A DNA stretch of 64,000 nucleotides from Dyadobacter tibetensis Y620-1 (lineage in GTDB: Bacteria > Bacteroidota > Bacteroidia > Cytophagales > Spirosomataceae), in the NCBI RefSeq assembly GCF_000566685.1, contig NZ_AZQN01000003.1, positions 992,001-1,056,000 of the forward strand, written 5' to 3'. Positions 12,059 to 18,308 of the stretch are shown here, piece after piece; positions within the stretch are counted from its first letter, which is position 1; each line of letters opens with the position of its first letter. Below the pieces are notes generated by a model, which saw only the letters and a program-made list of their open reading frames with translations, ran no database searches and was not told the DNA's origin. The translations under genes and the position numbers were made by a program.

Positions 12059-15000
12059 TTATATTTCTTTGCTGTCAGCCAGATATTCTGGCTCAGTATT
12101 AGCCTGAGGCGTGGGCTGCGATTTGGTGCCAAAGCTGGCGAATAGCACATAAAGACCAGGAATAATCACGACGCCAAACAGGGTTCCAATCAGCATGCCC
12201 CCGGCGGCGGCAGTACCAATGGATCTGTTACCGATAGCTCCAGCTCCAGAGGCCATAACCAGCGGGATAAGTCCTGCTATAAAAGCGAAGGAAGTCATCA
12301 AAATAGGTCGGAGTCGTTCTGTGGCCCCTTCCAGCGCAGCGTCCACCACCGATCGTCCCTCTTTCTGACGTATGATGGCATATTCTACAATTAGAATAGC
12401 ATTCTTTCCGAGCAGACCAATCAGCATCACCAGAGAAACCTGGGCATAGATATTGTTCTCCAATCCTAATAATTTAAGTGAAAGGAAGGCTCCGAAAATT
12501 CCTGTCGGTAGGGAAAGTATAACTGGTAAGGGAAGCAAGAAGCTTTCATACTGAGCCGCAAGAAGTAGGTATACAAAAAGCAGACAGATTCCAAAGATGA
12601 AAATAGCCTGATTACCCGATAGAATCTCTTCGCGGGTCATCCCCGACCAGTCGTAGGTAAAACCTTTGGGTAGGCTCGTAGCTGCGACCCGTTCCACGGC
12701 TTTAATGGCATCTCCACTACTATATCCGGGAGCAGCATCCCCGTTGATCATAGCCGAGGTGTACATATTGTATCTGGTAAGAAGTTCTGGTCCGTACACC
12801 CTTTCCATTTTGATAAAGGTGGAGTAGGGTACCATATCTCCCCGGTTATTCTTTACATAGAGCTTTAGAATATCTTCAGGATTTTTCCGGTACTGAGGAT
12901 CGGCTTGTACCATTACCTTGTACATCTGCCCAAAGCGTATAAAGTTGGACGCGTATAAACTACCGACAAGCGTTTGTAGTGTGCTCATGGCCTCATCCAC
13001 TGACACCCCTTTCTTGGCGGCAATATCGGGATCGACATGGATGAGATATTGCGGGAAACTGGCATCGAAACTACTAAAGGCCGAGGCAATCTCCGGAGCT
13101 GCGGCGAGCTCTTTGACGAACTGGTTGGTGATCTCAGCCGTTTTTTGCAGATCATCACTTCCCGTACGATCCTGAACCCGAAGTTCGAAACCGCTGGAGT
13201 TACCAAACCCAGGCACGGTAGGAGGAGGGAAATATTGAATTTCGGCATCGGTAATATGGCGGGTAAGCCGTTGCATCTCTACAATGACATCCTTGACCGA
13301 CTCTGTCCGGTCATGCCAGGGCTTCAGGTTAATCATGGCCATACCATAGGACGCTCCAGCCGATTCTGTCATTAAACTATAGCCCGACAGGGTCGATACC
13401 GACTCCACAGGGCCCAGAGTTTCAGCGACTTTCTGAATTTCATTTAATACTTTTTCAGTCCGCTCTACCGTAGCACCCGGAGGGGTCGTCACATTTACAT
13501 TTAATACGCCCTGATCTTCAGTAGGTATAAATCCGGTAGGGAGAATAGTATTAATGCCATAGGTGCCAATACAGAACGCAATTAAGAGTCCTACCGTAAT
13601 TACCCGGCGATTGATAATGAGGGAGAGTAATTTCCGATATTTCCCTGATACGGCTTCATATCCATTATTGAACCCCCTGAAGAATCGATCTAAAGGCGTG
13701 TTTTTCGAGGGCTGTCCATGGGTATTTTTGAGCATCAATGCGCAAAGGGCTGGCGTTAGGGTTAGGGCATTGATACCCGAGATTACGATGGATATAGCTA
13801 AAGTAATAGAAAACTGGCGGTAGAATATACCAACTGGTCCAGACATAAATGCCACTGGAACAAACACGGCGGACATTACCAGAGTAATAGCAATAATAGC
13901 CCCACTCATTTCCTTCATCGACTCTATGGTTGCCTCCCGGGCATCCAGATGTTTCTCAGCCATTTTAGCGTGTACCGCTTCCACTACGACAATGGCATTG
14001 TCGACGACAATACCGATGGCGAGTACCAGTGCAAATAAGGTTAGTAGGTTAATGGAAAAGCCGAATAGCTGCATAAAGGCGAAGGTTCCTACCAGGGCTA
14101 CCGGTACGGCCAATGCAGGAATAACCGTAGATCGGAAATCCTGAAGGAAAATAAATACGATGATGATTACCAGAATGAAGGCCTCGATCAAGGTACGGAC
14201 TACTTCGTCTATGGAAGCATCAAGGAAACGGGAAACGTCATAGGAAATAGCATAGTCCATTCCGGCAGGGAACGAAGTCTCCTTTAGTTCCGCTACCCGC
14301 TTTTTTACATTCTCGATAACCTCCTGGGCATTAGAACCCGGCCGCTGCTTAAGCATGATAGAAGCAGAGGGTTTTCCATTGGACATGGAAGTCATATCAT
14401 ATTCCAGAGAGCCAAATTCTACTTCGGCTACATCCCTTAACTTGAGCATGGACCCATCAGGGTTAGCTCTTAAAACGATATTTTCATACTGCTCGGGTTC
14501 AAAGAGCTTTCCAGTATATTTTAATACATACTGAAGCATCTGAACATCTTTTCCTGAGCTAATTCCGGTTTTCCCAGGGGCAGCAACAACACTTTGCTGA
14601 CGAATGGCGGCCACCACGTCATTGGCCGAGACATTATAACTGCTCATACGATCGGGCTTTAACCAAATCCGCATGGAGTAATCACGACTACCCATGATTA
14701 CTGCTCTACCCACCCCATCAATTCTTTTCAACTCCTTTAGGATATTGATATCGGCGAAATTGTAAACAAAGTCTTCAGCTACTGCCGTATCGGAACTCAT
14801 AATGTCCAGATACATCAGCATACTGTTTACTTCTTTTTCTGTAGTGACTCCGGCCTTGATAACCTCTTCGGGTAGCTCATCGATAACGGTCTGGACTCGG
14901 TTCTGGACGTTTACTGCGGCTAGGTCAGGGTCTATGCCCACGTTAAAGGAAATGGTAATGGTGGTTACCCCATCGTTACCCGAAACAGTTGACATATAAG

Positions 15001-15226
15001 TCATACCGGGAACCCCGTTAATCGCCCTTTCCAGGGGAACTGCCACGGCATCGACACAAACTTCGGCGTTGGCTCCCGTATAGGTAGCCGTTACCACTAC
15101 GGAGGGGGGGACAATATCGGGGAACTGAGAAACAGGAAGGCCAAAAAAGGCCAGTATTCCAAGTAAAGTAATGAATATTGAGATGACCAGTGAGAGTACC
15201 GGTCGCTCTATAAATTTTTGAAACAT
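12059..15226 (-). CDS. RND efflux pump, HAE1 family inner membrane permease
   Basis: A 1055-residue protein of AcrB/MexB size. It begins MFQKFIERPVLSLVISIFI, as HAE1 pumps do. Two repeats each have a large periplasmic loop and six membrane segments. In TM4 the proton-relay motif reads GIVVDNAIVVVEAVHAK: the first Asp of the AcrB D407/D408 pair is kept and the second is Asn, as I recall for Bacteroidota members. The second half shows LIGLLGKNAILIVEYA and RLRPILMTSFAFIAGLIPL. It uses the proton gradient to expel drugs or other amphiphiles from the periplasm through the adaptor and outer membrane factor encoded on either side. Confidence 0.97.
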   Translation of the reverse strand: MFQKFIERPVLSLVISIFITLLGILAFFGLPVSQFPDIVPPSVVVTATYTGANAEVCVDAVAVPLERAINGVPGMTYMSTVSGNDGVTTITISFNVGIDPDLAAVNVQNRVQTVIDELPEEVIKAGVTTEKEVNSMLMYLDIMSSDTAVAEDFVYNFADINILKELKRIDGVGRAVIMGSRDYSMRIWLKPDRMSSYNVSANDVVAAIRQQSVVAAPGKTGISSGKDVQMLQYVLKYTGKLFEPEQYENIVLRANPDGSMLKLRDVAEVEFGSLEYDMTSMSNGKPSASIMLKQRPGSNAQEVIENVKKRVAELKETSFPAGMDYAISYDVSRFLDASIDEVVRTLIEAFILVIIIVFIFLQDFRSTVIPALAVPVALVGTFAFMQLFGFSINLLTLFALVLAIGIVVDNAIVVVEAVHAKMAEKHLDAREATIESMKEMSGAIIAITLVMSAVFVPVAFMSGPVGIFYRQFSITLAISIVISGINALTLTPALCALMLKNTHGQPSKNTPLDRFFRGFNNGYEAVSGKYRKLLSLIINRRVITVGLLIAFCIGTYGINTILPTGFIPTEDQGVLNVNVTTPPGATVERTEKVLNEIQKVAETLGPVESVSTLSGYSLMTESAGASYGMAMINLKPWHDRTESVKDVIVEMQRLTRHITDAEIQYFPPPTVPGFGNSSGFELRVQDRTGSDDLQKTAEITNQFVKELAAAPEIASAFSSFDASFPQYLIHVDPDIAAKKGVSVDEAMSTLQTLVGSLYASNFIRFGQMYKVMVQADPQYRKNPEDILKLYVKNNRGDMVPYSTFIKMERVYGPELLTRYNMYTSAMINGDAAPGYSSGDAIKAVERVAATSLPKGFTYDWSGMTREEILSGNQAIFIFGICLLFVYLLLAAQYESFLLPLPVILSLPTGIFGAFLSLKLLGLENNIYAQVSLVMLIGLLGKNAILIVEYAIIRQKEGRSVVDAALEGATERLRPILMTSFAFIAGLIPLVMASGAGAIGNRSIGTAAAGGMLIGTLFGVVIIPGLYVLFASFGTKSQPTPQANTEPEYLADSKEI

Positions 15227-15266
15227 GACTGCGCTTTAGAAAGGTAGTAGGATCTATTAATCTGGC

Positions 15267-16424
15267 TTATAAAGAAGTGATGGTCTTGCTATCTTTTTTC
15301 TTCACCTGCTTGCCCTGAAGGGAAATCAACTTGGGTTTGATAGTCATTCCATCTTTTAGCACCTGGATGCCTTCGTAAACGATGCGGTCTCCCGTTTCCA
15401 ATCCCGATTTGACGATATAATAGTCCCCGATTCTTAGCTTAGGCTCGAATATCTTGGATTTTACGGTATTGTCTTCTCCTACCAAATAGACAAAACTTTT
15501 ATCCTGAATATCGAAGACTGCCTTTTGGGGTACCAGCAACACTTCGTCTACCATATTGGTAAGACGTACCGTTCCTGTCGAACCATGTTTGAGTATGCCC
15601 TGGGGATTGGCAAAGCGTGCCCGAAAGGCAATGGATCCTGTACTCTCATCAAATTGACCTTCCATGGTTTCTATTTTTCCTTTTTCAGGGAAGTAGGTCC
15701 CATCGGCTAGCTCCAGATCAATCAGGTTCTCATTTTGCTCTGTTTCACGTCGAGCTTTTACATATTCCAAATACTCATTCTCAGAGACATTAAAATAGAC
15801 GTTTACATTGGTATTGTCCGAAATAGAAGTAAGCAGGGTTCCTTCGTTAATAAGACTACCAATTTTCAGAGGGATTCTGTTGATCACTCCGTTGAAAGGA
15901 GCACGAATCCGGGTATGCGCTAATTGAATGCTCGCATTGGTGACGGCAGAATTTGCTTCTTCTATTTTGGCTTTCACTGCCGAATAATTAGCCTGAGCCA
16001 CTTCAAGCTCCGTTTTGGAAATAATATCTTTATCCACGAGCAACTTTACCCGTTTGACTTCTAGTTCTGCAGCTTTCGCCTGAGCCATGGCGCTTTGCTG
16101 GTTAGCTTTTGCCTTGGCTAGTTCGGCAGAATATTCTTCATTATTGATACGGAAAAGTACTTGCCCCTTTTTTACTGGTTTCCCTTCATCTACATATACT
16201 TCTTCTAGGTATCCTTTTACCCGGGCATAAATTTCAACATTTTTGAGGGCATGGATAGACCCAACATATTCCCGGTGAAGCTCTGTCTGCTGGGGGAACA
16301 ACCGAGCTACAGGGATGGTTAATACCGTGTCCTTATTGTCGGAAACTGTCTCGCTCTGTGTAGAACATGCCGATAAAAATGCCGTGAGGGCCAACATCAG
16401 GGTAGGCCAGATAATTTTTTTCAT
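15267..16424 (-). CDS. RND efflux periplasmic adaptor (membrane fusion protein)
   Basis: The start is the ATG at 16424 (MKKIIWPTLMLALTAFLSAC), giving 385 residues with a lipobox at FLSAC; upstream codons in the frame are not protein-like. A barrel-sandwich/lipoyl half motif (VEIYARVKGYLEEVYVDEG) leads into an alpha-helical hairpin (about 100-170, rich in Ala/Lys/Glu), then HTRIRAPFNGVINRI and the beta-barrel domain. It is AcrA/MexA-like and connects the pump to the outer membrane factor. It is first in the operon adaptor-pump-channel with gaps of 40 and 58 bases, so the three are surely co-transcribed. No regulator gene adjoins. Confidence 0.95.
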   Translation of the reverse strand: MKKIIWPTLMLALTAFLSACSTQSETVSDNKDTVLTIPVARLFPQQTELHREYVGSIHALKNVEIYARVKGYLEEVYVDEGKPVKKGQVLFRINNEEYSAELAKAKANQQSAMAQAKAAELEVKRVKLLVDKDIISKTELEVAQANYSAVKAKIEEANSAVTNASIQLAHTRIRAPFNGVINRIPLKIGSLINEGTLLTSISDNTNVNVYFNVSENEYLEYVKARRETEQNENLIDLELADGTYFPEKGKIETMEGQFDESTGSIAFRARFANPQGILKHGSTGTVRLTNMVDEVLLVPQKAVFDIQDKSFVYLVGEDNTVKSKIFEPKLRIGDYYIVKSGLETGDRIVYEGIQVLKDGMTIKPKLISLQGKQVKKKDSKTITSL

Positions 16425-16592
16425 TTTAAATGTAGTGATAAAATTGGGTAGCGGGCACGTTACCTCCAATGCAGACGGTCGATAATGTATCGATCGGCCC
16501 ATCGATGAAAGGTGCCAATTAAGGGAATTAAAAATAGGAAATTGTAAAGGGCGAAAACCTTTACCGAGCATTCATTTTGGTAGATGAACCTG

Positions 16593-17267: not shown

Positions 17268-18308
17268 ATGAAGGTTGTTTTGGAAACGACCCATTTCAGA
17301 CTTTCTAAAATGACTCTGGAAGATGGGCAAAAATACCATGCATTATGCACCGATGAGCGCGTCATGCAGTATATCACTGGCAAGGCCTTGTCCAGGGAGG
17401 AGTCGGATCGCATGTTGAAAGAGTTTGTAGAATCTTCGCAGGATCACCCCATTTTTGGAAGATACTTCGTAAGTCTGAAGTCGAATGCTGAATTGATTGG
17501 TTCTGCTAAATTGGAAGCCTATGAAGACAGTGCCGAGATTGGATATCGCCTGATATGGGACTACTGGGGAAAGGGGCTGGCCACCTTGTTGGCCAGAGAA
17601 CTCCTGCATCTGGCCCTGGCCAATGTTCCTGTTGCTTCCGTAATAGCATTTGTAGATAATCGAAATTTAGCATCGATCAGAGTATTAGAAAAAGCCGGAA
17701 TGCAGCTCGAGAATCAATTTGATCTACAGGATGAGATTAGATTAAAATATAAATACACACCTAAATCAAAATGGACTATGAAAACTGTCATTCTAGTGAT
17801 TTTTGGATTGATTGCGGCCGTGGTGGTAGCCGGGCTTGTAATGCCCAAAGATTACGAAGTCACCAGAAGCATTGTGGTGAATCAACCCAGGGACGCTGTT
17901 TATGAATATCTTCGATCCCTCGAAAATCAGGAAAAGTGGAGCGTATGGTCCAAAATGGATCCCAATATGTTCAAAGAGTATAGGGGCGACGAAGGCCAGG
18001 TAGGAAGGGTGTACCGATGGAGAAGCGACGAGAAAGATGTAGGAGCAGGTGAGCAGGAAATAGTAAGTATGAAGGAGGGGGTAAGAATAGATTATGAACT
18101 TCGCTTTCAAGAGCCCTTCGAATCCGTTTCTCAAGCTTATTTGGAGACAATGGCCCTGGATTCCGCTCAAACCAAGGTAACCTGGGGTTTCGAAGGCAGC
18201 ATGCCTATTCCTATGAATGTAATGATGCCCTTTATGGATATTGAGAATTCTATAGGGAAAGATTTTGATCAGGGACTGGCTAATCTCAAGGAAATTCTTG
18301 AAAGATAA
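17268..18308 (+). CDS. GNAT acetyltransferase fused to membrane-anchored SRPBCC domain
   Basis: The ATG at 17268 (MKVVLETTHFRLSKMTLED) gives 346 residues; a GTG at 17232 is the other option. Residues about 1-165 are a RimJ/RimL-type GNAT N-acetyltransferase, with the acetyl-CoA motif DYWGKGLATLLARELL and NRNLASIRVLEKAGM. Without a stop, the frame continues into KSKWTMKTVILVIFGLIAA, a single membrane helix, and then a SRPBCC (polyketide cyclase/START-like) domain, PKDYEVTRSIVVNQPRDAVY through FDQGLANLKEI. The second half would normally be a separate protein starting at its own Met, here at 17778. The fusion is either real or the result of a lost stop codon. The helix would place the GNAT domain and the SRPBCC domain on opposite sides of the membrane. 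Confidence 0.82.
   Translation: MKVVLETTHFRLSKMTLEDGQKYHALCTDERVMQYITGKALSREESDRMLKEFVESSQDHPIFGRYFVSLKSNAELIGSAKLEAYEDSAEIGYRLIWDYWGKGLATLLARELLHLALANVPVASVIAFVDNRNLASIRVLEKAGMQLENQFDLQDEIRLKYKYTPKSKWTMKTVILVIFGLIAAVVVAGLVMPKDYEVTRSIVVNQPRDAVYEYLRSLENQEKWSVWSKMDPNMFKEYRGDEGQVGRVYRWRSDEKDVGAGEQEIVSMKEGVRIDYELRFQEPFESVSQAYLETMALDSAQTKVTWGFEGSMPIPMNVMMPFMDIENSIGKDFDQGLANLKEILER

Follow-up and report, generated by a model that had tools for sequence, protein, structure and literature searches.

An old gene fusion of an acetyltransferase and a membrane SRPBCC protein in Dyadobacter that probably yields two products through a start kept at its seam

Introduction

Synthesis of two proteins from one reading frame by internal initiation is already known, as the available texts on Cas11b (PMC11899642) and on Salmonella proteoforms (PMC11005335) describe. 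For internal translation initiation together with gene fusion, the literature search gave one match, on a type III secretion sorting platform. Gene fusions are usually taken as two functions in one chain. Acetyltransferases of the PA3944 and SpeG types (PDB 6edd, 3fbu and 4jjx) have the fold and the active-site Glu and Ser positions of the Dyadobacter GNAT studied here, and we know of no fusion of these types to a membrane SRPBCC domain. Solo membrane-anchored SRPBCC proteins occur without a GNAT in front, unlike the Dyadobacter fusion. The solo PF10604 protein of Pseudarcicella hirudinis (L069) has the same layout of helix and SRPBCC domain as the second half of the fusion. No description of a GNAT-SRPBCC fusion, or of a Dyadobacter acetyltransferase with an SRPBCC domain, was found in a partial literature search. 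Here, a fused gene of this kind was analysed in a 64,000-nucleotide stretch of Dyadobacter tibetensis Y620-1 DNA, which is called the window.

Results

Architecture of the fused gene

Translation of window positions 17268-18308 gave one uninterrupted frame of 346 residues with a terminal stop codon. The protein consisted, in order, of a GNAT acetyltransferase, a 7-residue linker, a membrane helix and an SRPBCC domain. The features and their evidence were as follows.

17268..18308, plus strand: entire fused gene with its stop, 346 residues (translation, Pfam, relatives)
17298..17705, plus strand: GNAT acetyltransferase domain PF13302, residues 11-146 (Pfam; E90 and S136 invariant in 34/34)
17757..17777, plus strand: 7-residue linker (164-170) from the last GNAT strand to the helix (34 relatives free of stops and length changes)
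17754..17777, plus strand: putative start region within the seam, from -24 to -1 relative to the internal ATG (constraint on synonymous sites; G-free at -24 to -12; A-rich near -13)
17778..17780, plus strand: internal ATG (Met171), proposed second start (Met conservation; best-scoring in-frame ATG of the gene)
17778..17840, plus strand: predicted membrane helix, residues 171-191 (AlphaFold2 model, flank charges)
17856..18302, plus strand: SRPBCC domain PF10604, residues 197-345 (Pfam, structure matches)
17778..18308, plus strand: proposed second product, a 176-residue membrane-anchored SRPBCC protein (conservation and start signals)

The preliminary description had proposed an in-frame join of two complete domains, placed at the Met with which the second protein would start, and a membrane helix there. 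Our results agreed with both points. The frame was open, and the window protein exceeded both Pfam cutoffs, with 91 bits against 25.4 for Acetyltransf_3 (PF13302, residues 11-146) and 42.3 bits against 27.4 for Polyketide_cyc2/SRPBCC (PF10604, residues 197-345). PF13302 (E up to 0.001), PF00583 and PF10604 were each matched by all 34 fused proteins found in the genus. The score for NCBIfam NF052495 PktCycXAC1230 was 44.6 bits, below the equivalog cutoff of 490. In the AlphaFold2 model of the whole protein (mean pLDDT 89.4, pTM 0.52), both domains were confident internally, and the pTM left open the relative placement of the two. The final GNAT strand stopped at residue 163, and the helix of residues 171-191 began at the junction Met.

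This helix was strongly hydrophobic (Kyte-Doolittle mean 3.13 across 19 residues). The positively charged flank of a membrane helix lies on the cytoplasmic side (positive-inside rule), and in all 34 fused proteins the N-side flank carried more positive charge than the C-side flank. By this rule, the GNAT is predicted to be cytoplasmic and the SRPBCC domain periplasmic. Coupling from cytoplasm to periplasm would fit the flank charges in all 34 proteins. The model of the SRPBCC part (pLDDT 92.7) had the helix-grip fold expected of this family and resembled the structures of SMU.440 (3ijt_A, TM by target length 0.81) and PYL2.

In the GNAT half, W100 and G103 were invariant, and YWGKG is presumably the acetyl-CoA loop. 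E90 and S136 were aligned with E102 and S148 of PA3944 and were invariant in the 34 proteins. Since S148 is essential in PA3944 according to the available text of PMC8072286, the Dyadobacter GNAT is probably active. The nearest solved relatives act on polyamine (by name) or polymyxin-type amine substrates. BlmB was considered as a relative in layout and was rejected because its 340-column alignment was reached only at 28 A rmsd.

Distribution and losses of the fusion

The full fusion, open and aligned end to end, was present in 34 of 48 Dyadobacter genomes, including that of the window. The other 33 fused proteins were 47-62% identical to the window protein. Since full-length open frames occurred in so many genomes, the fusion was not a sequencing slip, and an error at the junction was ruled out. 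The preliminary description had left a choice between a recently lost stop and a useful fusion, and had proposed a comparison of split and fused relatives. This comparison gave 34 fused and 14 GNAT-only forms, and GNAT and SRPBCC were not encoded by separate adjacent genes in any of the 48 genomes. The useful-fusion alternative was upheld. The idea of a recently lost stop had to be dropped, as the fusion was common to most of the genus and the GNAT-only forms were later losses, nested among fused ones.

Outside the genus, the fusion was not found in the 174 other genomes of the family that were searched. Nor was it found in an order sample (368 genomes outside the genus) or in a phylum sample (394 such genomes); both samples were drawn evenly and searched under strict E-value limits, with scores for few candidates in each genome. 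The matches reported in these two samples were to the SRPBCC part alone or, once, to the GNAT part alone.

The remaining 14 Dyadobacter genomes carried a GNAT ortholog without the SRPBCC domain, in neighbourhoods that largely shared gene families with the fused loci. On the tree of the GNAT part, these rows were nested among the fused rows. The presence or absence of the fusion took 8 changes on this tree, 5 of which were forced by well-supported branches. On this tree, the SRPBCC domain was thus lost about eight times within Dyadobacter. Remnants of the lost part were seen in several GNAT-only tails. A membrane helix was retained in L038, L043 and L044, and L036 and L037 showed by eye an apparent final SRPBCC helix, left after internal deletion. 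Profile signal around the GNAT-only genes was limited to helix remnants inside open reading frames (domain E 0.00045 in L038 and 0.22 in L043). Because the GNAT-only rows were nested and several of their tails held remnants of the lost part, the fusion is old and the unfused forms are secondary.

In L038, L043 and L044, the helix remained as a C-terminal tail after the SRPBCC loss, which suggests a tail-anchored acetyltransferase. In L037, where the SRPBCC domain was lost, a 14-base unit lay in head-to-tail copies immediately 3' of the GNAT stop. Transfer of the SRPBCC part to another place in the GNAT-only genomes was also considered, and none was seen at E up to 1e-20. At this limit, 7 of the 14 genomes had no second match and 7 had one SRPBCC match (38-43% identity). 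Three of these seven (L137, L141 and L145) were put in the tree and grouped with the Dyadobacter solo paralogs.

Solo relatives and origin

Solo SRPBCC genes began at or near the position homologous to the junction Met, where the solo start was chosen as the one nearest to the expected Met. An ancestral neighbourhood of the two genes was sought at 104 solo loci, which included at least two organisms present twice. A GNAT-like match was seen at one locus, about 2 kb from the SRPBCC start and non-adjacent, and this candidate was rejected. The SRPBCC tree had 74 rows, in which 17 of the 34 fused sequences and roughly half of the solo ones were represented; proteins outside 140-230 residues were dropped. 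On this tree, the fused SRPBCC lineage was distinct from the Dyadobacter solo SRPBCC paralog. A further set contained 23 of the 34 fused and 29 solo SRPBCC proteins. A single origin of the fusion would fit the SRPBCC tree but does not follow from it, since the same supported clade also held flavobacterial and acidobacterial proteins that are unfused.

Conservation of the seam

Both domains were under purifying selection, with dN/dS of 0.02-0.09 for the GNAT and 0.01-0.06 for the SRPBCC domain in nine measurable close pairs. The seven linker codons had 129 inferred nucleotide changes and no stop, against 5.06 stops expected under unconstrained change. There was no change of linker length among the 34 fused genes. 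The missing stops and the constant length indicated that selection seems to keep both read-through and the internal start.

Every one of the 34 fused genes had the junction Met (17778), and all 14 GNAT-only genes lacked it. The latter had ATT, ATC, ATA, CTG, CTT, GTG, CAA, AAG or AAA at this position, the assignment in L039 varying with gap placement. Among the 31 columns of linker and helix, only the Met and the next Lys had no amino-acid change on the tree, and the mean over all 31 columns was 6.3 changes. Only four independent pairs lay on well-supported branches (eight on all branches), and all behaved as expected (p 0.125). However, loss of the Met is also expected from relaxed constraint once the domain is gone, which weakens this observation as evidence for a second product.

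Synonymous conservation was centred on the same codon. Of 345 ten-codon windows, the 14 highest-ranking ones all had their first codon between -12 and +4 relative to the Met, and the best reached a z of 28.8 against a gene mean of 6.1 (sd 5.1). With 23 sequences below 85% identity, the best z was 21.0 against a mean of 3.6 (sd 3.7). In near-invariant columns, there were 2.83 synonymous changes per column at the junction (6 columns) and 11.62 elsewhere (161 columns; p 6e-5). Ten pairs were tried and nine were measurable; the linker-plus-helix dS was lower than both flanks in all nine, and dN was higher than both flanks in five. Ser at -7 was encoded by TCA in 29 of 29 cases, although the rest of these genes used TCA less often than any other Ser codon. 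Amino-acid constraint was therefore insufficient to account for the conservation of the junction.

Such a pattern might also arise if only the full chain were made, with the Met and the synonymous constraint serving to slow or guide translation at the emerging helix, or persisting as a decaying relic. The frame without stops or length changes agrees with this reading, as do the extension of the conserved stretch into the first codons of the helix and the part of the A-rich stretch that remains in many GNAT-only genes (see below). However, a relic would hardly form the most conserved synonymous stretch of a gene in which dS outside the junction was 0.5-2.1, and an insertion signal needs neither an ATG in 34 of 34 genes nor start-like bases upstream. 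We consider a single product unlikely.

Start-like signals at the seam

We examined the bases in front of the internal ATG. G was absent at -24 to -12 in all 34 fused genes, and A was found at -14, -13 and -12 in 33, 33 and 31 of them; in the GNAT-only genes, A was found at these positions in 10, 10 and 11 of 14. In the available text of PMC6847099, A is over-represented at -14 to -11 of Flavobacterium johnsoniae starts, and A at -12, -13, -3 and -6 increases translation. The A-rich -14 to -12 of the seam resembled these A-rich Bacteroidota starts. A at -3 and -6 of the internal ATG was unenriched (12/34 and 1/34). Folding was computed for 17 of the 34 genes. It was weakest at the internal ATG among the 33 positions compared, but the excess over synonymous shuffles at the ATG, +1.58, ranked only third of the 33.

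Of the 36 window starts, 26 served to train a start model, and 29 solo genes were also used. In 26 of 34 genes, the model placed the junction ATG ahead of all other in-frame ATGs (AUC 0.978). In the window gene, it scored 7.73, the best of 15 in-frame ATGs. Of the 353 internal ATGs of 36 other genes in the window, 0.57% scored at least this high, and true starts averaged 1.32 by leave-one-out. At the seam, the mean score was 3.98 for fused genes against 0.20 for GNAT-only genes, in a comparison of related rows by a test that ignores kinship. The gene's first start at 17268 scored -7.9, and the first starts of the 34 genes averaged -1.20. The score therefore misses some starts. The difference between -7.9 and 7.73 hints at a possible excess of the SRPBCC product. 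The seam thus appeared to combine a conserved codon with an initiation signal and nucleotide constraint, as expected of an internal start, apart from A at -3 and -6.

Because the seam apparently retains the start signal that the second part once had, one gene probably makes two proteins. The preliminary description had rightly suggested that internal initiation be looked for at 17778. We favour the reading that the fusion is kept as a dual-product gene, which would give the full fusion and a free SRPBCC protein from the internal start. A variant of this reading is that both products are made, the full-length fusion being a by-product that is tolerated; selection would then act on the GNAT and the separately started SRPBCC protein and not on their joining. 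It would explain why the internal start scored like ordinary starts and the first start poorly, and the GNAT evidently functions without the SRPBCC part in 14 genomes. However, a linker free of stops against 5.06 expected and constant in length in 34 genomes is difficult to reconcile with a by-product, and so is the lack of separate adjacent GNAT and SRPBCC genes in all 48. This variant seems distinctly improbable.

A CCTAAA-type box was also seen, at 24 of 34 fusion seams and in front of 10 of 29 solo SRPBCC genes, against 1 of 36 gene starts in the window. It sat 8-24 bases before the start (solo genes L131-L159). Since it occurred at only 1 of 36 window gene starts, the box is no general start signal, and it is possibly a site specific to the SRPBCC family. 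Its greater frequency at SRPBCC starts, together with constraint acting at the nucleotide level, could be read as the trace of an internal promoter, an operator or an RNA element. However, TAnnTTTG, which we take to be the Bacteroidota promoter motif, lay upstream of the seam in 1 of 34 genes, and Rfam had no match for the seam. Moreover, the seam was the least folded of the stretches tested, and constraint was maximal at the ATG itself. Another signal of this kind is hardly credible.

Gene neighbourhood

The neighbourhood survey covered 34 loci, comprising 20 fused loci (window included) and 14 GNAT-only loci. An OmdA/DUF1801 gene was near the GNAT gene in 18 of the 34 loci. In D. psychrophilus, it lay four bases past the fusion stop (L051 5046-5657), and in the window genome it was not a neighbour of the fusion. 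This gene hints at envelope or cationic-compound stress, and we give it little weight. An RND efflux pump of the AcrB type and an HlyD-type adaptor were encoded divergently upstream (window 12059-16571, minus strand), and the HlyD-type adaptor family was present in 23 of the 34 loci. The window contained no tRNA.

Discussion

Comparison of genomes established the fusion, its age and spread, its repeated losses, purifying selection and an ATG-centred nucleotide constraint. On this basis, we propose the following course of events. A Dyadobacter ancestor would have joined a GNAT acetyltransferase gene to a gene for a single-pass membrane SRPBCC protein, and the translation start region of the latter would have become the linker. 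Initiation at 17268 would give a membrane-tethered acetyltransferase, with the GNAT in the cytoplasm and the SRPBCC domain outside. Initiation at the internal ATG 17778, if used, would give the free 176-residue membrane-anchored SRPBCC protein. Read-through and restart would both be under selection, and the two products may work together. Later deletion of the SRPBCC domain would have taken the internal start along.

A more speculative extension, which we regard as doubtful, is that the gene is a device for setting a ratio. One mRNA would give the tethered acetyltransferase and an excess of free SRPBCC protein, and in the assembled form a ligand outside would control acetylation inside, an arrangement held through the history of the genus. 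If this were true, lineages would keep the fused frame and the second start, or would lose that start along with the SRPBCC domain.

The Dyadobacter case suggests that a fusion linker can retain the start signal of the second gene and so provide joined and separate forms. The roughly eight domain losses in one genus would serve as natural controls. They offer a comparative test for other fused genes, in which a seam Met and synonymous constraint should be present only while the downstream domain remains. This test is most relevant to Bacteroidota, where starts lack a Shine-Dalgarno sequence and internal starts are easily overlooked in annotation. The results also indicate an apparently undescribed family of membrane-tethered acetyltransferases.

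The architecture, and the contrast between a kept seam and repeated joint loss, look new. In Cas11b from cas8b, as the available text describes, an internal Met of a longer frame likewise starts a second protein, which corresponds to the C-terminal part of the longer one (PMC11899642). That case was shown experimentally, in a CRISPR complex, whereas the Dyadobacter case is deduced from evolution. Unlike Cas11b, two unrelated families are fused here, with a membrane helix at the seam. The Salmonella N-terminal proteoform pairs are likewise two isoforms per gene made from alternative in-frame starts, in the available text of PMC11005335. Compared with these pairs, the proposed internal start in Dyadobacter coincides with the seam of a domain fusion, and its use would release a whole second protein.
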